Assembly (NCBI RefSeq): GCF_946478835.1
Contig: NZ_CAMLDV010000028.1
Location: 1 to 29,593 of the forward strand
Reading direction: 5' to 3'
Length of the DNA stretch: 29,593 nucleotides
From: an uncultured Bdellovibrio sp.
GTDB lineage: Bacteria; Bdellovibrionota; Bdellovibrionia; Bdellovibrionales; Bdellovibrionaceae
In this document: positions 8,329-28,546 of the stretch, piece by piece
Layout: each line of letters starts with the position of its first letter
Position numbering within the stretch: the stretch's first letter is position 1
Notes under the pieces: model-generated
The model's database searches: none
Told to the model about the DNA's origin: nothing
What the model saw: the letters and a program-made list of their open reading frames with translations, nothing else
Translations under genes and position numbers: made by a program

Positions 8329-8835
8329 TTATTGATTGTTAGAGGGAAGGCGGCCTGTGCCTTCATAAAAAGAGATGCCTTCGACTTGTTTCAGGTTCTC
8401 ATCATATCGAATCGTAATCCCTCTCTTTTGATCAATATAAAATTTGACCCTTGAGATAGAATGTATTCTATCTCTTTCACTTTGCTCCGTTACAAAAGAA
8501 GCGCCTTGAAAACTTTCAAGAGTATTTGAAAGAGAGATCTGTGGATCAGACTCTGTCGGGATCCATAAAATGCCAATGAGCTTTGATGTTTTATCGTCAA
8601 AGTTGGCAGTTACCCTTTGAACGCCTGTTGAGGGATCATTAAACTGCAGGGAAAAGTAGCCGTCCCGAGAGTTCTTGTCACTCGGAGACCCTAGAGTAGC
8701 GATAACTTCAGAGGAAGTAGATTTTCCAACCGAAAGGCTTTTAACATTTTCGTAGGTAAGACGTTGAGTTTTGCCTGAGGTACTTGCACAACCAGCCAAC
8801 ATAATAAGGCTTGTAATCAAAACTCCACATTTCAT
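8329..8835 (-). CDS. BamE/SmpA-like lipoprotein
   Basis: This 168-residue predicted lipoprotein has lipobox LAGC with Cys16. Residues about 28-60 contain VKSLSVGKSTSSEVIATLGSP, spread over the first helix pair typical of the SmpA/OmlA (BamE-like) fold, where a GxS/T-x-x-E/D-V motif leads to a G-x-P turn. The following YFSLQF and RVTANFDD strands fit the same small alpha-beta domain, then an unassigned C-terminal region. BamE assists outer-membrane protein assembly, but many lipoproteins use this fold for other purposes, so a role in Bam is not implied. The ATG overlaps the stop of the upstream metalloprotease-like gene (ATGA, 8832-8835), so the two act as a coupled pair. Confidence 0.84.
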   Translation of the reverse strand: MKCGVLITSLIMLAGCASTSGKTQRLTYENVKSLSVGKSTSSEVIATLGSPSDKNSRDGYFSLQFNDPSTGVQRVTANFDDKTSKLIGILWIPTESDPQISLSNTLESFQGASFVTEQSERDRIHSISRVKFYIDQKRGITIRYDENLKQVEGISFYEGTGRLPSNNQ

Positions 8836-9584
8836 TTGCCGGAACCCTTTCTTCCCAATTTATCGCCGTATCTCTTTTGATACCATTCATACGCCGAAGG
8901 TGTGGTCTTTTTCAGTTTATCAGGATTGTTTATAAAGTGTTCAAAATTATTGGAATAATCCTCGCTAGGCGACATTTTTCCGTCTTCTTCAACGTATCCA
9001 TTCTTACGGCCTTGCCAATAATATTTGTTATCTTTTTCGAGCTCAAGGTGCCATCCCGTAGCGCGACGATAGTCCTGTCTGGCAGTTTCCCCAATGTCTT
9101 CGTAATTTTGATGTGACAACTCATGCGTGATTACTCTGTCTAACCCGTCTTTATTATCAAAAGCAGAGTCATAGATGACGATAATTCCGTCAGAACTACT
9201 GGCTGGGTTAGGATAATCTTTAGAGCGCTCGGCTCTATAAAATCCCTCAATTTTCTCGCTTAAAATTTCTTGAGGAAGGTTGTCGAGTATATCTATGAGG
9301 ACGCTTTTTTCGCCATCTTTCCAAGCCTTCGCTCGTTCTTTTGAATGGGGCCACCCTTGGGGTAAGCCATCCTTAAATCTATTTTTCGTATAGATATAAC
9401 CACGAGTTAACAACTTGCAATGTGCTTTGACATTCGTGGCCCTCACAAGGGTTCCACTAGCTCGGTAATAGGAGTGTCGATAATGAGCTTTAACTGGATA
9501 TTGCCCGTCGGGACATGCAAGTGTACTGGCAGAAATTTCTAAATAAAATACAGAGATCACTATAAAAGAGAGATATTTGAGCAT
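8832..9584 (-). CDS. Secreted HExxH putative metalloprotease
   Basis: This 250-residue protein has a signal peptide (about 1-20, ending SAS or STLA) and therefore acts in the periplasm or outside the cell. His154-Glu155-Leu-Ser-His158 (RVITHELSHQNY) is a zinc-protease active-site motif. The downstream KMSPSEDYSNNFEHFINNP segment, near Glu208-Asp209, followed by TTPSAYEWYQKRYG, resembles the third-ligand region of anthrax-lethal-factor-like (ATLF-like) peptidases, in which an EDFAE motif supplies the glutamate. That placement is by pattern memory. Paired cysteines Cys24 and Cys56 could form a disulfide. It overlaps the BamE-like lipoprotein gene and no other known partner is seen. The substrate is unknown; prey cell-wall or envelope protein is possible. 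Confidence 0.82.
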   Translation of the reverse strand: MLKYLSFIVISVFYLEISASTLACPDGQYPVKAHYRHSYYRASGTLVRATNVKAHCKLLTRGYIYTKNRFKDGLPQGWPHSKERAKAWKDGEKSVLIDILDNLPQEILSEKIEGFYRAERSKDYPNPASSSDGIIVIYDSAFDNKDGLDRVITHELSHQNYEDIGETARQDYRRATGWHLELEKDNKYYWQGRKNGYVEEDGKMSPSEDYSNNFEHFINNPDKLKKTTPSAYEWYQKRYGDKLGRKGSGK

Positions 9585-9703: not shown

Positions 9704-10192
9704 TTAAGCAGCTTTCGCTTCTTCTTGGTGAGAGAACTGAGCCATGTGACCCATTTGTTCTGCAGAGAATGCAGAAACGATATCAACCAGGATCACAACT
9801 TTGTTGTCGACTTTACCCATACCGCGAACGAAAGACATTGCGTGTTCGTTACCTAGTACCGGAGAAGGTTCGATTTGTGATTCTTGAAGATCTACAACTT
9901 CTTTTACTGAGTCTACGATCATGCCTACTTGACCGATTTCAGTGTCGATCACGATGATACATGTGTCGCGAGTTGTATCTTGTGGTTGCATACCGAATTT
10001 AATGCGAAGATTTACAACCGGAATAATTTTACCGCGCAAATTCATCACGCCTTTAACATAATCAGGAGTACGCGGCACTGGAGTGATTTCACCGAACTGG
10101 TTGATCTCACGCACAGTCTCAATAGCAACTCCGTATTGTTCAGACATCAATTGGAACGTCAAATACTGACCTGGTTTTGCTTTATCGCTCAT
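9704..10192 (-). CDS. cheW: Chemotaxis coupling protein CheW
   Basis: CheW links chemoreceptors to the kinase CheA in the polar signalling array. The 162-residue protein is one CheW domain: YLTFQLMSEQYGVAIETVREI at the start, VPRTPDYVKGVMNLRGKIIPVVNLR in the middle, and VGMIVDSVKEVVDL in the second subdomain. These are the usual conserved receptor- and CheA-contacting segments. AAAGG lies about nine bases before the ATG. It is transcribed divergently from cheA, with a 278-base gap, and ends at its own terminator, so it is a separate transcript from cheA-cheR-cheB. It appears intact even though the neighbouring cheA frame is broken. Confidence 0.94.
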   Translation of the reverse strand: MSDKAKPGQYLTFQLMSEQYGVAIETVREINQFGEITPVPRTPDYVKGVMNLRGKIIPVVNLRIKFGMQPQDTTRDTCIIVIDTEIGQVGMIVDSVKEVVDLQESQIEPSPVLGNEHAMSFVRGMGKVDNKVVILVDIVSAFSAEQMGHMAQFSHQEEAKAA

Positions 10193-10470: not shown

Positions 10471-11070
10471 ATGAGCGGTGATAATGCCTTTTTCGAAGAA
10501 CTGCAGATGGATTTCCTCAACGAGTCTGCGTTCATGCTGGAGCAGTATGAGGAATATATGATGAGACTAGAAAACAGTGAAGATCCTGCGAAGGATCTCA
10601 CTGATATTTTCCGCGTAGCTCACTCTGTAAAAGGGGGCGCGGCCGCTGTCGGTCTCACAGATCTTTCTAAATTTGCCCATGTGATGGAAGACCTTTTGGA
10701 TCTTTTACGTTCGCGTCCTGAGCTTGTGAACTCCAATGCGATTTCACTTTTGCTTCAATCTGGTGATGAACTTAAAAACCGCGTCTCTTCTTTGCAGCAA
10801 GGTAAAAATCTTCCTTGGGATACAACGGCTCTAAGAGAGCAGCTTGTCGCTTTAACGGAAGAGCTTTCAGGAAAACCTTCTTCTCATAAAAAAGAAGCGG
10901 CTCCAGCTCCTGAAGAAATCAAAGAACAAGTTCCTGATGATTTCTTTGCGGCCCCTGCATCTGCCCCTGTGGCTGAAGCGACTGACGATGTTACAAACCA
11001 TGACTTGCTTGCAGAACTTCTGGCGCAATTGTCTCCTGAAGATCAAGCTGAGTTCTATGCGAAAGAATAA
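10471..11070 (+). CDS. cheA: CheA N-terminal fragment: phosphotransfer (P1/Hpt) domain
   Basis: This 199-residue product contains an intact Hpt domain (about 1-110) with the phospho-accepting His51 in the FRVAHSVKGGAAAVG motif. A charged linker follows from about 130, containing a helical LLAELLAQLSPEDQAEF stretch, then the premature TAA. GGAG (10460-10463) is seven bases before the ATG. No canonical P2 CheY-binding domain is evident. On its own this fragment could still be phosphorylated in trans: liberated P1 of enteric CheA is known to be a substrate for the P3-P4-P5 part. Whether that happens here depends on the second fragment being made. Confidence 0.8.
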   Translation: MSGDNAFFEELQMDFLNESAFMLEQYEEYMMRLENSEDPAKDLTDIFRVAHSVKGGAAAVGLTDLSKFAHVMEDLLDLLRSRPELVNSNAISLLLQSGDELKNRVSSLQQGKNLPWDTTALREQLVALTEELSGKPSSHKKEAAPAPEEIKEQVPDDFFAAPASAPVAEATDDVTNHDLLAELLAQLSPEDQAEFYAKE

Positions 11071-11145
11071 CAAGAGAAAAAAGCGGCGGCACAGGCACCA
11101 GCGCCGACACCCGTTGCGGCACAACCAGCTGTTGAAAAGCCTGCA

Positions 11146-12492
11146 TTGAAAGTGGTGGCTGAAAATTCAAAACCAGCTCCAGCAAAGGCAGCACCGGCTG
11201 AGCCTGCAGCCTCTTCAAACGGCAATGGTGGTTCTGGAAAAGCTCCGGCAAAACAAACAAGCGCAATCAAAGTCGATACGGGCCGTGTGGATTCCGTGTT
11301 GGATGCCGTCGGCGAGCTTGTGGTTTTAAAGAATCAATTAGTCCATGATGAAACAGTTCGCAGTGGTGTGAATCTTCGTTTGGAAGCAATCGTTGATCAA
11401 TTGGATAAAGCAGTTCGTGAACTTTATGAAAAGACACTCAGCATTCGTATGACGCCGCTAAAATCCATGTTCATTAAAATTCAACGTATCGTTCGTGACG
11501 TGTCGTTGAGTTTGGATAAACCTGTGGATTTGCAGCTTATCGGTGAAGAGACCGAGGTTGAAAGAACCGTCTTTGAATTATTAGGTGATCCTCTCGTTCA
11601 CTTGGTTCGTAACTCGATGGACCACGGGGTTGAGAAAAAAGAAACACGCTTGGAAAGAGGCAAACCTGTCACAGCAAAAGTGGTCGTTTCCGCAAAACAA
11701 TCAGGTGGTAACGTTATCATTGAAATTTGTGACGATGGTGGTGGTATCAATCGCGAAAAAGTTTTGGCAAAAGCTATTGAAAGAGGCTTTGTGCCAACAG
11801 GTGTTGACCCCGCATCAATTCCCGATGAACAAGTTTTCCAATATATTTTCCAACCGGGTTTTTCGACGGCAGATAAGATCTCGGATCTTTCAGGCCGTGG
11901 TGTAGGTTTGGACGTTGTGAAATCAAATTTGGATAAGATCAACGGGAAGATCAATATTTTCTCGAAAGCAGGTCAGGGAACAACCTTCCGTTTGACGATT
12001 CCTCTTAGCACGGCGATTACCGACGGTATCATCGTGGCTTTGGATGGAGCCCGTTATATTTTACCAATTCATTCCATTCGTGAAATCGTGCGTGTCCTAC
12101 CAAAAGACTACACGCATATTTCCGGAGCAGGAAAAGTGGCGAGCATTCGTGGACTCCTCTTGCCGGTGATTGATGTTTCAAAAACTTTGGGATCCATCAA
12201 TTGGACACTCAACAAAAAAGACCAGCAGCTCATGGCAAAACGCGAGAACTCTTTGAGTGCTCGTCGTGAAGAGACCATGCTTGTGATTATTGAATCCATG
12301 ACTGGCCAAATGGCATTCCCTGTGGATGACGTTTTGGGTCAGGCACAAGTGGTGGTTAAACCAATTACGACAGGACAAAATATTCCTGAAGTTGCGGGCG
12401 CCGCGATTCTTGGTGATGGTCGTACGGTTCTTATTCTTGAACCAGGAGCTTTAGTGAGTAATGTCACTAAGGGTAGGGAGATGGCAGCATGA
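11146..12492 (+). CDS. cheA: CheA C-terminal fragment: P3-P4-P5 kinase core
   Basis: This part carries the dimerisation helix (SAIKVDTGRVDSVLDAVGEL), the ATPase N box (HLVRNSMDHGVE), G1 box (CDDGGGINREK), G2 box (GRGVGLDVVKSN) and a CheW-like P5 domain near the end. All ATP-binding motifs are intact. The first in-frame start after the TAA is TTG at 11146, without a convincing ribosome-binding site; GTG codons at 11152 and 11155 are alternatives. Independent translation is therefore doubtful, and the sequence is better seen as the rest of a broken cheA. It overlaps cheR by ATGA at 12489-12492. Confidence 0.6.
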   Translation: MKVVAENSKPAPAKAAPAEPAASSNGNGGSGKAPAKQTSAIKVDTGRVDSVLDAVGELVVLKNQLVHDETVRSGVNLRLEAIVDQLDKAVRELYEKTLSIRMTPLKSMFIKIQRIVRDVSLSLDKPVDLQLIGEETEVERTVFELLGDPLVHLVRNSMDHGVEKKETRLERGKPVTAKVVVSAKQSGGNVIIEICDDGGGINREKVLAKAIERGFVPTGVDPASIPDEQVFQYIFQPGFSTADKISDLSGRGVGLDVVKSNLDKINGKINIFSKAGQGTTFRLTIPLSTAITDGIIVALDGARYILPIHSIREIVRVLPKDYTHISGAGKVASIRGLLLPVIDVSKTLGSINWTLNKKDQQLMAKRENSLSARREETMLVIIESMTGQMAFPVDDVLGQAQVVVKPITTGQNIPEVAGAAILGDGRTVLILEPGALVSNVTKGREMAA

Positions 12493-13358
12493 CGGCTGTA
12501 AAAAAGAATGAGCTTGTAGGCTCTCTTTACGATTTTGAAGAGATCAAGCTCAGCGATAAGATGTTTACAAAATTTGCGGAACGCATGTATGAACTCGCGG
12601 GCGTGGATCTTCCACTGACTCCAAAGAACCATGCATTGATTCGCAATCGCATTGTGAAGTTATTAAGACGACATTCTTTGAAGTCGTACGAAGAGTATTG
12701 GACGATGATCGATAGAGGCAGTCCGGAAATGGTGTCAGAGTTTATTTCGGCTCTGACAACGAACATGACGTCGTTTTATCGCGAGTCGAATCATTTTGAT
12801 TTCCTCGGCAGTGTACTTCCTGATTTGTGTCGCAAATTTGGCAATGACATCCGCCTTTGGTGTGCGGCGGCCAGCACAGGTCAAGAGCCTTACACGATTG
12901 CGATGACGGCAAATGAAGCTGTGGGTGATAACTCCGCTAGCAAAGTGCGTATTCTGGCGACCGACATTGATTTGCAAGTTCTAAAAAAGGCTTCTTCAGG
13001 AACTTATGAAGAGCGTGAGATGCAAGGTCTTCCTCCAGCGCAACGTCACAAGTACTTTGAAAAAATCAAAGCGCAAGGTGATGAGTTCTGGAGAGCCAAG
13101 GATCAGATTCACAGCATGATCCGCTTTGCGCCATTCAATCTGATGAATCCGAAATATGAATTTCAGCACAAGTTCCATGTGATCTTCTGTCGAAATGTTT
13201 TGATTTATTTTGATGAAGCAACAACGAAGAAGGTGATCGACAATTTGGTGACTTGTTTGGCTCCGGGTGGATACCTCATCTTAGGCCACTCTGAATCTGG
13301 AAACGTCAAGCACCAACAACTTAAACCGCTTTCAAGAGCTGTTTACCAAAAGCTCTAA
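12489..13358 (+). CDS. cheR: Chemoreceptor methyltransferase CheR
   Basis: CheR uses S-adenosylmethionine to methylate glutamates of chemoreceptors, the adaptation step opposed by CheB. The 289-residue protein has the N-terminal helical domain (to about 95) and the methyltransferase domain: WCAAASTGQEPYTIAM binds the cofactor, ILATDIDLQVL is motif II, VIFCRNVLIYFD follows, and PGGYLILGHSES is near the end. All are intact. No C-terminal pentapeptide-tether or TPR extension is present. It is translationally coupled to cheA by ATGA overlap, so a stop in cheA could still allow expression only if ribosomes or transcripts reach this point, and polar effects are possible. Confidence 0.94.
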   Translation: MTAVKKNELVGSLYDFEEIKLSDKMFTKFAERMYELAGVDLPLTPKNHALIRNRIVKLLRRHSLKSYEEYWTMIDRGSPEMVSEFISALTTNMTSFYRESNHFDFLGSVLPDLCRKFGNDIRLWCAAASTGQEPYTIAMTANEAVGDNSASKVRILATDIDLQVLKKASSGTYEEREMQGLPPAQRHKYFEKIKAQGDEFWRAKDQIHSMIRFAPFNLMNPKYEFQHKFHVIFCRNVLIYFDEATTKKVIDNLVTCLAPGGYLILGHSESGNVKHQQLKPLSRAVYQKL

Positions 13359-13370
13359 TAGAGGCGCCTT

Positions 13371-14432
13371 ATGGCTCAGAAAATTCGTGTCCTGATTGTT
13401 GATGACTCTGCGGTGATCAGAAAACTTCTAGAGAAGATTTTTAGCTCCGCACCGGATATGGAAGTTGTAGGAACAGCTTCAGATCCTTATATCGCAAGAG
13501 ACAAACTGGTGACCCTCAAACCTGATGTTATGACTCTGGATGTGGAAATGCCTCGCATGGATGGCATTAGTTTCCTGGAAAAGGTCATGCAGCATTTTCC
13601 AACTCGAACGATTATTTTTTCAAGCTTGGCGAAAACGGGTTCTGAAACTTATTTGCGCGCTCTTGAAGCGGGTGCCATTGAGATCATGGAAAAACCTTCC
13701 ATTGACGTCTCACAAAGTTTGGAATCACTGTCGCAAACGATTCTGGAAAAAGTCAGAGCCGTTGCCAAAGCACGTATCAATCCGATTAAAAAAGTGATTC
13801 CAGCATCGGGACCCGTAAAAAAAGTAAGCCCGACTTCACTTGCAAGAACTACGCATCAGTTGATCGCCGTGGCCTCTTCAACAGGTGGAACCGAAGCTTT
13901 GAAAGTTTTTTTAAGTGGTATGCCTGCGGATATTCCGGGAACCTTGATTGTTCAGCATATGCCACCGGGATTCACAAAATCTTTTGCAGAAAACCTGAAT
14001 AACCTTTTCCCTTTCGAAGTGAAAGAAGCGCAAGAGGGTGATCAAGTCGTTCCTGGACGCGTGTTGATTGCTCCGGGAAACTATCACATGGAAATCACGC
14101 GCAGTGGTGCCTTTTACTACGTAAAACTTCATCAAGGCCCCGCTTTGCACAGTGTGCGTCCGGCGGCAGACTACTTGATGAAATCTGTTGCGAAGTACGT
14201 GGGTAAAAATGCCTTGGGTGTTGTTTTGACCGGAATGGGTAAGGACGGTGCTGAAGGTTTGCTAGAGATGAAAAATGCCGGAGCTTACACGGTCGCACAA
14301 AACGAAGAAACGTGCGTGGTGTATGGAATGCCTGCGGCTGCGGTGGCATTAGGTGCTGCTGATAAGATTCTCCCTCTGGATAAGATTGCCGGAGATCTTT
14401 TAGGTCAAATCCAAACTCGTAACGCGGCTTAA
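13371..14432 (+). CDS. cheB: Chemotaxis methylesterase/deamidase CheB
   Basis: CheB removes receptor methyl groups and deamidates glutamines, and is activated by phosphorylation from CheA. The 353 residues comprise a receiver domain (about 5-125) with Asp11-Asp12 and phospho-acceptor Asp57 in LDVEMPRMDG, then a linker, then the esterase domain with the serine triad: Ser170 in ASSTGGTEA, His196 in QHMPPGFT and Asp292 in GMGKDGAEG. All catalytic residues are present. It starts 12 bases after cheR with GAGG upstream, so it is the last gene of the cheA-cheR-cheB operon. No cheD or cheY adjoins it. Confidence 0.95.
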   Translation: MAQKIRVLIVDDSAVIRKLLEKIFSSAPDMEVVGTASDPYIARDKLVTLKPDVMTLDVEMPRMDGISFLEKVMQHFPTRTIIFSSLAKTGSETYLRALEAGAIEIMEKPSIDVSQSLESLSQTILEKVRAVAKARINPIKKVIPASGPVKKVSPTSLARTTHQLIAVASSTGGTEALKVFLSGMPADIPGTLIVQHMPPGFTKSFAENLNNLFPFEVKEAQEGDQVVPGRVLIAPGNYHMEITRSGAFYYVKLHQGPALHSVRPAADYLMKSVAKYVGKNALGVVLTGMGKDGAEGLLEMKNAGAYTVAQNEETCVVYGMPAAAVALGAADKILPLDKIAGDLLGQIQTRNAA

Positions 14433-14502
14433 CGCTGAGAAACAAAACGGGCAAGTCGAGGCCTTTATTAAATCCTTGAACCCTTAAGAGTATTCCCTAA
14501 GA

Positions 14503-14531
14503 ATAGACTCCTGCTATCGACAGGAGTCTAT
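14503..14531 (+). promoter_or_regulatory. Hairpin burying the ribosome-binding site of the S9 peptidase gene
   Basis: ATAGACTCCTG (14503-14513) and CAGGAGTCTAT (14521-14531) are perfect 11-bp inverted arms with a seven-base loop. The 3' arm contains the only good Shine-Dalgarno site, CAGGAG, seven bases before the ATG at 14534. In RNA this would block ribosome access. A possible promoter TTGAAC-N17-AAGAAT (14476-14504) would start transcription within the left arm, in which case the palindrome would act as a DNA operator instead. No T run follows, so it is not a terminator. Confidence 0.55.
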
Positions 14532-14533
14532 CT

Positions 14534-16660
14534 ATGAAATTTCCAAAGTGGTTTCTTCTTATGCCCCTGATGCTTGGGGCCTGCAAATCAAAACCTCTGC
14601 AAAACAACGCGGCTTCAGAAGCTGAAGATCCTTATTTGTGGCTTGAAGAAGTCGAAGGACAGAAAGCTTTGCAATTTGCAAAAGATGAAAATCAAAAAAC
14701 TTTGGATCATTTTAAAAAAGATCCTTTGTTTAAATCCTTGGAAAAAGACATTCGTAAGATTGTTTTAGCAAAGGACCGTGTTCCAGATGTGAAGCTTAGA
14801 AATGGAGAGCTTTATAATTTCTGGCAAGATGAAAAGCACGTTCGCGGGGTTTGGCGTAAAACAACGGTGGCTAGTTACAAAACAGGAAGTCCTCATTGGG
14901 ATGTGATCCTAGATCTCGATGCTCTTGCGAAAAAAGAAAATGAAAACTGGGTTTGGAAAGGTTCTTCGGAACTTCCTCCTAAATACGAAAGAACGTTCAT
15001 TCACCTTTCTCGCGGCGGTAAAGATGCTACGGTGATCCGTGAATTTAATTTGAAAACCAAAGAATTTGTTAAAGATGGATTCGTGGTTCCTGAAGCAAAA
15101 AATCTTCTGACGTGGAAGGATGAAAATACAATTTTCGTAGGCACTGATTATGGTCCGGGCTCAATGACGGATTCTGGTTATGCACGTATCGTGAAGGTTT
15201 GGAAGCGCGGAACGCCGTTATCGACAGCTCAAGTCGTCAACGAAGGACAAAAGACGGATATGTCTGTTTATAGTTGGGTGGAATTCACACCGGAGAAAAA
15301 CTATACATTCCATACTCGTCGTCTGTCTTTTTATGAAGGCATCGATTGGTACGAAGATACTTCAGGCAAGAAAACGCAGATCCCGATGCCACAAGATGCG
15401 CAGTTTAACGGTGTCTTTAAGGATTATTTACTTTACGTTCTGCGCTCCGACCTAAAACAATTTAAAAAGGGCAGTCTTGTTGCGATGCCTTTTGATAAAA
15501 TCTTTGATGGTGAAAAAGCTCAAGATTCCTTGCAGCTTGTTTTTGCTCCTACAGAGAAAAAGTTTTTACAATGGGCAAGTTCGACAAAAGGCCATTTGAT
15601 ACTTTCAACAACCGACAATGTTTTATCAAAAATTGTGAAAGTCACTTACCAAGGACCTAACAAATGGACTCAAGAAGAGGTGTCTTTAGGTAAAAACGGA
15701 ATGGCAGTTGTAACTTCCACTGAAGATAATTCAGATCAATATTTAGCGGTGTACACAGATTTCTTAACACCGTCTTCAAACTACGTGGGAAACGCGGCGG
15801 ACTCTAAAAACGAATTTACTTTATTAAAAAGATCTCCAGAAAGATTCAACGCTCATGGCATGCACACAGAGCGCTTTGAAGCCATCAGCAAAGACGGAAC
15901 GAAAATTCCCTATTTCGTCGTGTCAAAAGAATCGCTAAAAAAAGACGGCAAAAATCCAACTCTGCTTTATGGTTACGGCGGATTTGAAATTCCGATGCAG
16001 CCTTCTTATAACGGTGTTTTAGGAAAGGCATGGTTAGAAAAAGGCGGTGTGTACGTTCTTTCCAACTTGCGCGGCGGCGGGGAGTTTGGTCCGGCTTGGC
16101 ATCAAGCTGTGCAAAAGGAAAATCGCTATAAAGTTTTTGAAGACAATATCGCGATTGCGGAAGACTTGATTGCGAGAAAGATCACATCACCTCAACACTT
16201 GGGAATTCGCGGCGGATCGAACGGTGGCCTTTTGACGGGAGCGACGTTTGTTCTCAGACCGGATTTGTTCAATGCTGTTCTTTGCCAAGTGCCTTTGCTT
16301 GATATGCTTCGCTATCACAAGCTTCTTGCAGGTGCGAGTTGGATGGATGAATACGGAAACCCTGAAGATCCTAAAATGCGCGAGGCGATTTTAAAATATT
16401 CGCCATACCAAAAAGTCGATGCAAAGACGAAATATCCTGAAGCGTTCTTTATGACGAGCACAAAGGACGACCGCGTTCATCCAGGCCATGCACGCAAGAT
16501 GGTGGCGAAGATGAGAGCGCAGGGACATCCTCTGTTCTACTATGAAAATACAGAAGGCGGCCACGCAAGGACCGCCAACTTAGAACAAAGTATTTTATGG
16601 AATACTTTGGAGTTCACTTATCTCTGGGAAAAACTGGGTAACAAGAAGTCTATCCAGTAA
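14534..16660 (+). CDS. Prolyl oligopeptidase family (S9A) lipoprotein
   Basis: This 708-residue serine peptidase cleaves short peptides, usually after proline. Lipobox LGAC with Cys17 predicts a membrane lipoprotein, while typical prolyl oligopeptidases are cytosolic, so it probably acts in the periplasm. The DPYLWLEEVEGQKAL N-terminal motif and a seven-bladed propeller region (about 70-420) precede the hydrolase domain. The catalytic serine is Ser562 (GGSNGG), the aspartate lies in DDRVHPGHA at 645-653, and the histidine is His677 (EGGHA). All are intact. The gene ends 11 bases inside the convergent receiver/CNB gene. A likely job is finishing digestion of prey peptides. Oligopeptidase B would be the alternative, but the motifs fit S9A better. 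Confidence 0.92.
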   Translation: MKFPKWFLLMPLMLGACKSKPLQNNAASEAEDPYLWLEEVEGQKALQFAKDENQKTLDHFKKDPLFKSLEKDIRKIVLAKDRVPDVKLRNGELYNFWQDEKHVRGVWRKTTVASYKTGSPHWDVILDLDALAKKENENWVWKGSSELPPKYERTFIHLSRGGKDATVIREFNLKTKEFVKDGFVVPEAKNLLTWKDENTIFVGTDYGPGSMTDSGYARIVKVWKRGTPLSTAQVVNEGQKTDMSVYSWVEFTPEKNYTFHTRRLSFYEGIDWYEDTSGKKTQIPMPQDAQFNGVFKDYLLYVLRSDLKQFKKGSLVAMPFDKIFDGEKAQDSLQLVFAPTEKKFLQWASSTKGHLILSTTDNVLSKIVKVTYQGPNKWTQEEVSLGKNGMAVVTSTEDNSDQYLAVYTDFLTPSSNYVGNAADSKNEFTLLKRSPERFNAHGMHTERFEAISKDGTKIPYFVVSKESLKKDGKNPTLLYGYGGFEIPMQPSYNGVLGKAWLEKGGVYVLSNLRGGGEFGPAWHQAVQKENRYKVFEDNIAIAEDLIARKITSPQHLGIRGGSNGGLLTGATFVLRPDLFNAVLCQVPLLDMLRYHKLLAGASWMDEYGNPEDPKMREAILKYSPYQKVDAKTKYPEAFFMTSTKDDRVHPGHARKMVAKMRAQGHPLFYYENTEGGHARTANLEQSILWNTLEFTYLWEKLGNKKSIQ

Positions 16661-18841: not shown

Positions 18842-19657
18842 ATGTCTTATTTAGCGAATTTTTACCATCATTTTTATGGCCCCGAAGACGGACGGAAGTG
18901 GATTTTCGTGCACGGTTTGATGGGCTATGGGCAAAACTGGCGTCGAATCATCTCCGGCCTTGAGGCCACGGAACATTGCTTGGCCTACGATCAACGCGGG
19001 CACGGCCGTTCTTTTCAGCCTCCCGAAGGTTACTCTCCCGAAGATTACGCCAATGACCTTAAAAAAATCGTGGATGAGCTTGGTTGGGACAAATTTATCT
19101 TGGTCGGCCACTCCATGGGTGGGCGAAATGTTTTAAACTTTGCCTCTCGTTTTCCCCAATATCTCAGCCATCTGGTCATTGAGGACATCGGCCCTGAAGG
19201 CAACCCTCAAGCTCATGAGTATTACGAATATTTATTGAATTTGGTGCCGAGTCCCTTTGCTTCTCGTGAGGAGGCGAAGCGCTATTTCTTTGAGGATTTC
19301 GTAAAAACGGCAAAGACTCGCGAGAACGTGCAGGTTATGGCGAACTATTTTTACTCTAATATGGAGGAAAAACCGAACGGAACCGTGGACTGGCGCTTCT
19401 CTAAACAAGCAATTATTGATTCGGTCCGTTTAGGCAGACAAGGGGACCGTTGGGCCGAGGTGGGGAGCCTTAAGGTTCCGACTTTGTTGGTCCGAGGCGG
19501 AAACTCCAAGGAACTTAGCCGCGAAAATTACGAGAAAATGCTGGCGCACAATTCTATGATTAAGGGCGTCGAAATCCCCAATGCCGGTCATTGGGTGCAC
19601 TCAGATCAACCTCAGGCTTTCATCGAGGCCTTGAAGATGTTTGTGGGCGGCTTTTAA
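18842..19657 (+). CDS. Alpha/beta-fold hydrolase
   Basis: This 271-residue cytosolic hydrolase has the oxyanion motif VHGLMGYG (about 23-30), DQRGHGRS near 50, the nucleophile Ser91 in VGHSMGG, and His250 in NAGHWVH as the catalytic histidine. An acidic residue after VPTLLVRGG near 218-226 is replaced by NSKE, as often seen when the acid is placed elsewhere. Sequence style is close to YbfF-like esterases and other small-ester hydrolases; the substrate cannot be read off. AAAAAGG lies two bases before the ATG and GGGAG about 13 upstream, so the start is reasonable but not strongly marked. The RNA helicase gene follows 65 bases later. Confidence 0.9.
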   Translation: MSYLANFYHHFYGPEDGRKWIFVHGLMGYGQNWRRIISGLEATEHCLAYDQRGHGRSFQPPEGYSPEDYANDLKKIVDELGWDKFILVGHSMGGRNVLNFASRFPQYLSHLVIEDIGPEGNPQAHEYYEYLLNLVPSPFASREEAKRYFFEDFVKTAKTRENVQVMANYFYSNMEEKPNGTVDWRFSKQAIIDSVRLGRQGDRWAEVGSLKVPTLLVRGGNSKELSRENYEKMLAHNSMIKGVEIPNAGHWVHSDQPQAFIEALKMFVGGF

Positions 19658-26818: not shown

Positions 26819-28546
26819 ATGTGGCTCTTAGTGCTGTCGTATATTGGGGGAGTTCTAACGATTTTAAGTCCCTGCATCCTTCCGGTGATTCCTTTTGTCT
26901 TTGCGAAAGCAGATCAACCTTTTCGAAAAAGTGGATTGCCCCTTTTGTTAGGCATGGCTTTGACGTTCGCGGTTTTTTCAAGTTTGGCGGTTCTCGGCGG
27001 AGCATGGATTGTTCAAGCCAACAATTGGGGACGGTGGATTGCCATTGTTCTTCTCACAGTCTTTGGTTTGTCACTGATCTTTCCACAGTTTTTCGATAGG
27101 TTCTTTGAACCGTTCACACGTTGGGGTTCAAAACTCAGCGAGAACTCAAAGTCTCAAGCAAGTTTTTCTAAATCTCTCTTGTTGGGAGTTGCGACAGGTC
27201 TTCTGTGGGCTCCCTGTGCGGGACCTATCTTAGGACTGATTCTAACTGGGGCGGCTTCTCAAGGAAGTACGCAAAGTGCCATTTGGTTTCTTTTGGCTTA
27301 TGCTTTAGGAGCTGCCACATCTCTGATGCTGGCTCTTGTCGCCGGGGGAAAATTTTTAGGAGTATTGAAAAAATCTTTGAAAGCAGAACGGGGAATAAAA
27401 ATCGCGCTAGGTATCGCGGTACTTCTTGGAGTTTTAACGATAACTTTTGGCCTTGATCGCACAGTTCTTACTAGAATTTCCAAAGTTCAAACGGAAGATA
27501 TCGAAAATAAGCTCATCCAAATTTTCCGTGGTGAAAATTCTCAGCGTAGTGGAACGGCAAAACAAGATCTAGAAGCCATGAATGATCTTCCAATCAGTTT
27601 GACCGGAGCCACTCAATGGTTTAACTCGCCCGCTCTTTCATTTGAGGCCTTAAAAGGGAAAGTCGTGCTTGTGGATTTCTGGACTTATTCATGTATCAAC
27701 TGTCTGCGCGCGCTAACCTATGTGAAAGCTTGGGCAGAGAAATACAAAGATCAAGGTCTCGTAGTTATCGGCGTGCACACTCCTGAATTCGCTTTCGAAA
27801 AAGATCCCGACAATGTTGCAAAAGCTATTAAAGAACTTGAGATTGGATATCCTGTGGCAATGGACAATGAGTATCGCATATGGAATTCATTTGATAACCA
27901 CTATTGGCCGGCCCATTATTTTTTGGATCGACAGGGGCGTCTTCGTCATCATCACTTTGGTGAAGGACAATATGAAGAGTCCGAAATGGTTATCCAAGAC
28001 CTTCTCAAAGAGGGCGGGCAACCCGCAATTTCTTTTGGTGTAGTGAAAGTGGAAGCACGGGGTGCGCAAGCGGCCCCGCAAATGAACGATATTAAATCCC
28101 CAGAGACGTATGTTGGTTACGCTCGTGCTGAAAATTTACGACTAACACCGATTCTGAAAGCGGACCGCGAGGAAGATTATGTCGCAGTTAAAAATCTGGA
28201 ACTTAACGAATGGACCCTAGGCGGTCGTTGGAACATTTCCAATGAGAGTGCCACACTCACCAAAGCAGGTGGCAAAATAATTTATCGTTTTCATGCACGC
28301 GATTTACATTTGGTTTTAGGTCCTCATAAAGCGGGTTCCTCAGTTCGATTTCGTGTCACTATTGATGGACACGCGCCGGGAGCGGATCACGGAATGGATG
28401 TGGATGAAAAAGGTCAGGGCATCGTCAAAGAGAATCGTTTGTATCAACTGATTCGCCAGAAAGATGCAGGCGACATTCGCGATCGAACTTTTGAAATTGA
28501 ATTTTTAGATCCGGATGTGGAAGCTTTTGCATTTACATTTGGATGA
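26819..28546 (+). CDS. dipZ: DipZ-like CcdA/thioredoxin fusion protein
   Basis: This 575-residue protein carries electrons from the cytoplasm to periplasmic thiols. Residues 1-210 are a CcdA/DsbD-type membrane domain with six helices and the redox cysteines Cys19 (LSPCILPVIP) and Cys133 (WAPCAGPI). Residues about 262-400 are a periplasmic thioredoxin-like domain with Cys292-Ile-Asn-Cys295 (YSCINCLRAL). The C-terminal part (about 425-575, from SPETYVGYARAENL) matches the extra carbohydrate-binding-like domain known from DipZ. The frame extends upstream, but ATG 26819 has AGAGGAG six bases before it. lrgA begins immediately after the stop, which suggests one transcript. Confidence 0.91.
   Translation: MWLLVLSYIGGVLTILSPCILPVIPFVFAKADQPFRKSGLPLLLGMALTFAVFSSLAVLGGAWIVQANNWGRWIAIVLLTVFGLSLIFPQFFDRFFEPFTRWGSKLSENSKSQASFSKSLLLGVATGLLWAPCAGPILGLILTGAASQGSTQSAIWFLLAYALGAATSLMLALVAGGKFLGVLKKSLKAERGIKIALGIAVLLGVLTITFGLDRTVLTRISKVQTEDIENKLIQIFRGENSQRSGTAKQDLEAMNDLPISLTGATQWFNSPALSFEALKGKVVLVDFWTYSCINCLRALTYVKAWAEKYKDQGLVVIGVHTPEFAFEKDPDNVAKAIKELEIGYPVAMDNEYRIWNSFDNHYWPAHYFLDRQGRLRHHHFGEGQYEESEMVIQDLLKEGGQPAISFGVVKVEARGAQAAPQMNDIKSPETYVGYARAENLRLTPILKADREEDYVAVKNLELNEWTLGGRWNISNESATLTKAGGKIIYRFHARDLHLVLGPHKAGSSVRFRVTIDGHAPGADHGMDVDEKGQGIVKENRLYQLIRQKDAGDIRDRTFEIEFLDPDVEAFAFTFG

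Follow-up and report, generated by a model that had tools for sequence, protein, structure and literature searches.

The window (the whole stretch of DNA analysed here, 29,593 nucleotides) carries a cheA gene with cheW on the opposite strand to one side and cheR and cheB on the other. Reading of the cheA frame, 10471-12492 on the plus strand, found exactly one internal stop, a TAA at 11068-11070 (codon 200 of 673) in the base context TAA-CAA-GAG, and the frame is otherwise open. Because of this TAA, CheA is not encoded here as one continuous polypeptide. The same frame crosses the site in 22/22 orthologues from the genus, and we therefore treat the locus as one gene with a stop rather than as two open reading frames (ORFs) that adjoin by chance. 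The features are listed below, with the evidence for each in brackets.

9704-10192, minus strand: cheW, intact, its protein identical to that of G001, the nearest genome compared (domain scan; G001 comparison)
10471-11070, plus strand: 5′ piece of cheA, comprising P1 (Hpt) and linker, 199 aa, ending at the TAA (frame and domain scan; database entry P0001)
10996-11055, plus strand: conserved linker island, residues 176-195, just 5′ of the TAA (orthologue alignment)
11068-11070, plus strand: in-frame TAA (a sense codon in 22/22 genus orthologues)
11071-12492, plus strand: 3′ part of cheA in the same frame, comprising linker, P3, P4 and P5, 473 codons and a TGA stop (frame and domain scan)
11146-11157, plus strand: candidate restart codons TTG 11146, GTG 11152 and GTG 11155 (anti-Shine-Dalgarno pairing -0.1 to -0.4 kcal/mol)
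12489-12492, plus strand: ATGA, in which the cheR start overlaps the cheA stop (also in 19/20 relatives whose locus reaches it)
12489-13358, plus strand: cheR, intact (domain scan; full length against G001)
13371-14432, plus strand: cheB, intact (domain scan; full length against G001)

Frame reading and domain scan agree with the initial annotation that a single in-frame TAA, with CAA directly 3′ of it, splits cheA between its phosphotransfer domain and its kinase core. The 199-aa 5′ piece contains an Hpt domain (PF01627, E 2.5e-13), in which His51 of P1 sits in the motif AHSVKGG, and the 3′ piece contains H-kinase_dim, HATPase_c and CheW domains; all four exceed their Pfam cut-offs and follow one another in CheA order across the two pieces. 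The phospho-acceptor histidine and the nucleotide-binding motifs are in place. The domain order P1-linker-P3-P4-P5 and the complete set of catalytic motifs described at the outset thus stand. A Pfam scan of the cheA pieces at E 0.001 found no P2 or CheY-binding domain.

The position of the stop had been described as a dispensable Ala/Pro-rich linker, and this needs amendment. The TAA does lie in the linker but directly after, on the 3′ side of, its best-conserved island (residues about 174-199), whereas the variable Ala/Pro stretch is downstream of the stop. Across the 22 orthologues the mean top-residue frequency at residues 181-190 is 0.94. Two conserved islands are present in this variable linker that lacks P2, namely VPDDFF (10930-10947, residues 154-159) and NHDLLAELLAQLSPEDQAEF (10996-11055, residues 176-195), and they may serve as docking motifs for CheY or CheB. 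The position of the break, immediately behind a conserved linker island, is the detail that most deserves to be kept.

The comparison with G001, which has 21% of the window's sampled 31-letter words in common, reaches about position 27825 of the window. G001 has 28 ORFs of 150 codons or more in the stretch compared; 23 of them match the window, and a stop was found in the window only in cheA; the other 22 each match as one ungapped or in-frame piece with no stop or frameshift. One of the 23 is cut by the window start and another, of 154 aa, overlaps a different gene and is unlikely to be real, while the five unmatched ORFs comprise four at the end of the G001 stretch before the window begins and one that has no counterpart in the window. 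With 1/23 matched ORFs containing a stop, an error-ridden or pseudogene-rich window is ruled out for the compared part. Two differences in gene content were seen near the locus. Positions 8329-9584 contain two ORFs, of 168 and 250 aa, for which neither Pfam nor the G001 stretch gave a match, and which we read as a strain-variable insertion adjoining cheW. In G001, in turn, about 2.4 kb including a 556-aa ORF separate cheB from a prolyl oligopeptidase gene; the window lacks this segment at 14432-14534 (L037/L038).

A close cheA orthologue was found in 22/24 genomes of the genus (L001-L022, mostly from other species; core query identity 79-99%), and none has a stop within the match. The alignment places a sense codon at the TAA site in all 22 (18 Ala, 3 Glu, 1 Gln), although it is loose just past the site, where linker length is variable. 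Two of the loci, L020 and L022, end at contig edges before the cheA 3′ end, and both cover the site; six named loci (L031-L036) were left out of every count. Relatives of cheB and cheW adjoin cheA in most of the 22 genomes. The closest named protein, P0025 of Bdellovibrio sp. HCB-162, has Glu at the stop site, and its other differences from the window are confined to residues 145-250. The stop is therefore absent from all 22 orthologues and from P0025. Conservation of the same stop in relatives, which had been named in advance as an argument against random mutation, was found in 0/22; a conserved stop or a two-gene arrangement in the genus was accordingly rejected. The two remaining genomes, G010 and G011, gave no cheA match at E 1e-150. 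G010 also lacks close matches to cheB, to cheW and to both flanking genes tested, so a longer stretch appears to be absent from the assembly or the genome. G011 is in about 510 contigs, with cheW and a transketolase-like gene sharing one of them. We took neither as a specific loss of cheA, given the larger gap in G010 and the fragmentation of G011.

Against G001, P1 (135 codons) shows 21 synonymous and 0 nonsynonymous differences and the core (410 codons) 45 and 0. The linker (128 codons) shows 28 and 6, the stop being among the six, and G001 has three extra residues there. With neither P1 nor the core showing an amino-acid change, the lesion must be recent, false or without effect. Polarisation with seven outgroups assigns 17 synonymous and 0 nonsynonymous core changes to the window branch, with six ambiguous sites left out. 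At a nonsynonymous-to-synonymous opportunity of 2.78 (transitions weighted 2), about 47f amino-acid changes are expected if a fraction f of this branch was free of constraint; their absence puts f below about 0.06 at 95%, as a rough bound. These substitution counts suggest, roughly, that constraint on cheA either persists or was lifted only a very short time ago. A core so strictly conserved could also be one that is still being made.

One stop in an otherwise intact gene is what was found, and 196 of the 672 sense codons of cheA are a single substitution away from a stop, so a nonsense change in this gene is an easy accident. We consider it likely, on these comparisons, that the Bdellovibrio cheA of the window, intact in other respects, is a nonsense allele that arose recently and is private to this strain. 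Translation would then end at 11070 and leave a P1-plus-linker fragment, with the kinase core unmade or made in traces only. Because the cheA stop and the cheR start overlap as ATGA, early termination in cheA may lower cheR translation: untranslated mRNA and the lost overlap may both reduce CheR, which has a strong ribosome site of its own (pairing -8.9). The cheA signalling unit would be silent or much weakened, and any other CheA paralogues that the strain has kept would go on working and perhaps buffer the loss. The loss of chemotaxis offered in the initial annotation goes beyond what the data support, because two more strong CheA-like matches are present in G001, in frames of 585 and 654 aa (sequence matches, as distinct from a domain scan).

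The first rival to this nonsense allele is a sequencing or assembly error: the strain's cheA would in reality be whole, and the TAA would be a single false base or a variant carried by a minority of the sequenced culture. Apart from this one change at base level the gene shows no sign of decay, and the original HD100 genome is reported to have contained a base-level discrepancy in another CheA gene, bd2406, although in that case it was the open sequence that had been published (PMC6428892). Set against this, no stop or frameshift occurs in any of the other 22 ORFs (150 codons or more) matched to G001, and the sequence is thus not generally poor. We regard an error of this kind as unlikely but worth keeping in mind.

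A second rival takes the split at face value: P1 would be free, and the core would be made from a restart at 11146-11155 and work in trans, like CheA3 and CheA4 of Rhodobacter sphaeroides. All domains are intact on both sides of the TAA, the core is under purifying selection, and split CheAs are known, at 11 against 470 complete ones in a count cited in the accessible part of PMC3591291. The difficulty lies in starting the second piece. The first in-frame ATG, GTG or TTG past the stop is TTG 11146, and upstream of the kinase core the only possible restarts are this codon, GTG 11152 and GTG 11155. That TTG 11146 has no good ribosome-binding site, as remarked from the start, is borne out by anti-Shine-Dalgarno pairing, and the same holds for every restart 5′ of the core; the best of 21 in-frame starts from 11071 to 11700 reaches -3.7 and lies within HATPase_c. 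Among 17 gene starts tested in the window, 13 pair at -4.2 or better. The other four are also weak (-1.5 to -3.3; one of them, at 19591, is a mechanical start and perhaps not real), and weak pairing alone therefore does not rule out initiation. The Leu codon aligned with TTG 11146 in the 22 relatives is TTG in 13, TTA in 4, CTG in 2 and CTT in 2, with the motif not found in 1. This TTG majority speaks for a restart, but none of the 13 TTG codons has upstream pairing better than -3.3 kcal/mol, and we read the position as a Leu codon rather than a conserved internal start. Enteric CheA-short does arise from an internal start, and a start here would similarly yield a CheA without the phospho-acceptor; unlike that case, the internal TTG has no good Shine-Dalgarno sequence in the window or in the relatives.

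The arrangement of the pieces argues in the same direction. The split is found in 0/22 relatives, and the P1 piece carries only Hpt and is missing the CheW domain that CheA3 has (PMC10782961, accessible part). A start signal of its own, a CheW domain on the P1 protein and a conserved split are thus all lacking. A working two-piece kinase is unlikely, and we would give a P1 and core acting in trans only a slim chance. The same small weight goes to a newly born two-piece kinase, in which P1 and the conserved linker island would form a diffusible phosphocarrier while weak restarts give enough core for the pathway still to signal. That the strict conservation of the core reflects continued use in such a kinase is just as improbable.

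The remaining rival, that readthrough of the TAA yields some full-length CheA, is very improbable: the core is conserved and the C that follows the stop is a base said to weaken termination, but TAA ends more genes in the window than any other stop (14/26), no Rfam match was found in the window at the gathering threshold, TAA-CAA-GAG does not match the extended viral (TMV-type) context CAR-YYA, and the stop and its context are kept in 0/22 relatives, which argues against a conserved programme. Of the four alternatives first put forward, recent nonsense mutation and sequencing error survive, readthrough is without positive support and the two-piece kinase is unlikely.

Short CheA entries were also found in the protein database. 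A search with CheA gave 266 matches, and among the 120 listed five are below 600 aa (P0027, P0065, P0069, P0139 and P0121). P0027 is the window's own core piece, given a start at GTG 11152 and 446 aa; it counts two member sequences, their source not given, and a second assembly carrying the same stop is possible. P0065 is on a contig of 1838 bases, and P0069 and P0139 are labelled partial. P0121 (568 aa; contig up to 11.6 kb) carries all three core domains but lacks Hpt, its start being a Met within the linker, and the related L019 contains this segment inside a full-length frame; P0121 may be a further broken copy, the product of start-site choice or the effect of a contig edge. The search with the P1 piece gave 24 matches, one of them the window's own and three labelled partial (P0005, P0006 and P0009), and a further P1-only gene among the remaining 20, such as P0004 (Hpt only), is possible. 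The partial pieces P0009 and P0139 have the same longest contig (49141 bases) and are probably one gene of a metagenome-assembled genome broken by an assembly gap. Elsewhere in the genus, a paralogous CheA-like match with one TAG inside (G006:C1:2501663-2502163) is possibly a further interrupted CheA homologue, and a second CheW-like match contains one TAA (G013:C1:226936-227352).

We tentatively take the window cheA to be the orthologue of HD100 Bd3469, since the three matches in genome G007, presumed to be HD100, follow the order of the homologue names. The Bd3469-type CheA of Bdellovibrio (L001-L022) is then the same gene as the window's, except that all 22 copies are without the stop. A literature search, mostly of titles and listings, found no publication describing this locus as split; one of the papers covered mentions Bd3469 by name. 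As far as the accessible part of PMC10782961 describes them, CheA3 and CheA4 of R. sphaeroides are encoded by two separate genes, both proteins carry a CheW domain, and orthologues occur in twenty other Rhodobacteraceae genomes. The window has one gene and a P1 piece without CheW, and the likeness, P1 and P3-P4-P5 on separate polypeptides, holds only provided that the second piece is translated.

A closer parallel comes from within the genus. HD100 has three CheA homologues, Bd0578, Bd2406 and Bd3469 (PMC6428892), and Tiberius likewise retains three (PMC3539863, accessible part); no interaction between Bd3469 and RomR was found (PMC6428892). Re-examination of bd2406 in HD100 brought to light a TAA in place of the lysine codon of the published genome, a discrepancy ascribed to low-coverage Sanger sequencing; the gene is full length in 109J and Tiberius, its N-terminal part is still translated in HD100, and a deletion strain has a predatory cycle much like that of the wild type (PMC6428892). 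Like bd2406, the window cheA is a CheA homologue of this genus in which a sense codon has become TAA in one strain with the remainder intact, and by this analogy it fits a strain-specific nonsense allele of the same kind. The two differ in that bd2406 is another paralogue, with PAS, whose stop lies upstream of Hpt and spares the sensory part, whereas the window cheA keeps P1 and linker; and the N-terminal part of bd2406 is expressed in HD100, whereas the window gene is known from sequence. As a molecular system the window cheA is ordinary. If its stop is real, it would offer a natural knock-out for learning the role of the cheA pathway and would join HD100 bd2406 as a second instance in which one nonsense codon cuts short a CheA homologue in a single Bdellovibrio strain, a hint that these predators readily lose chemosensory kinases.
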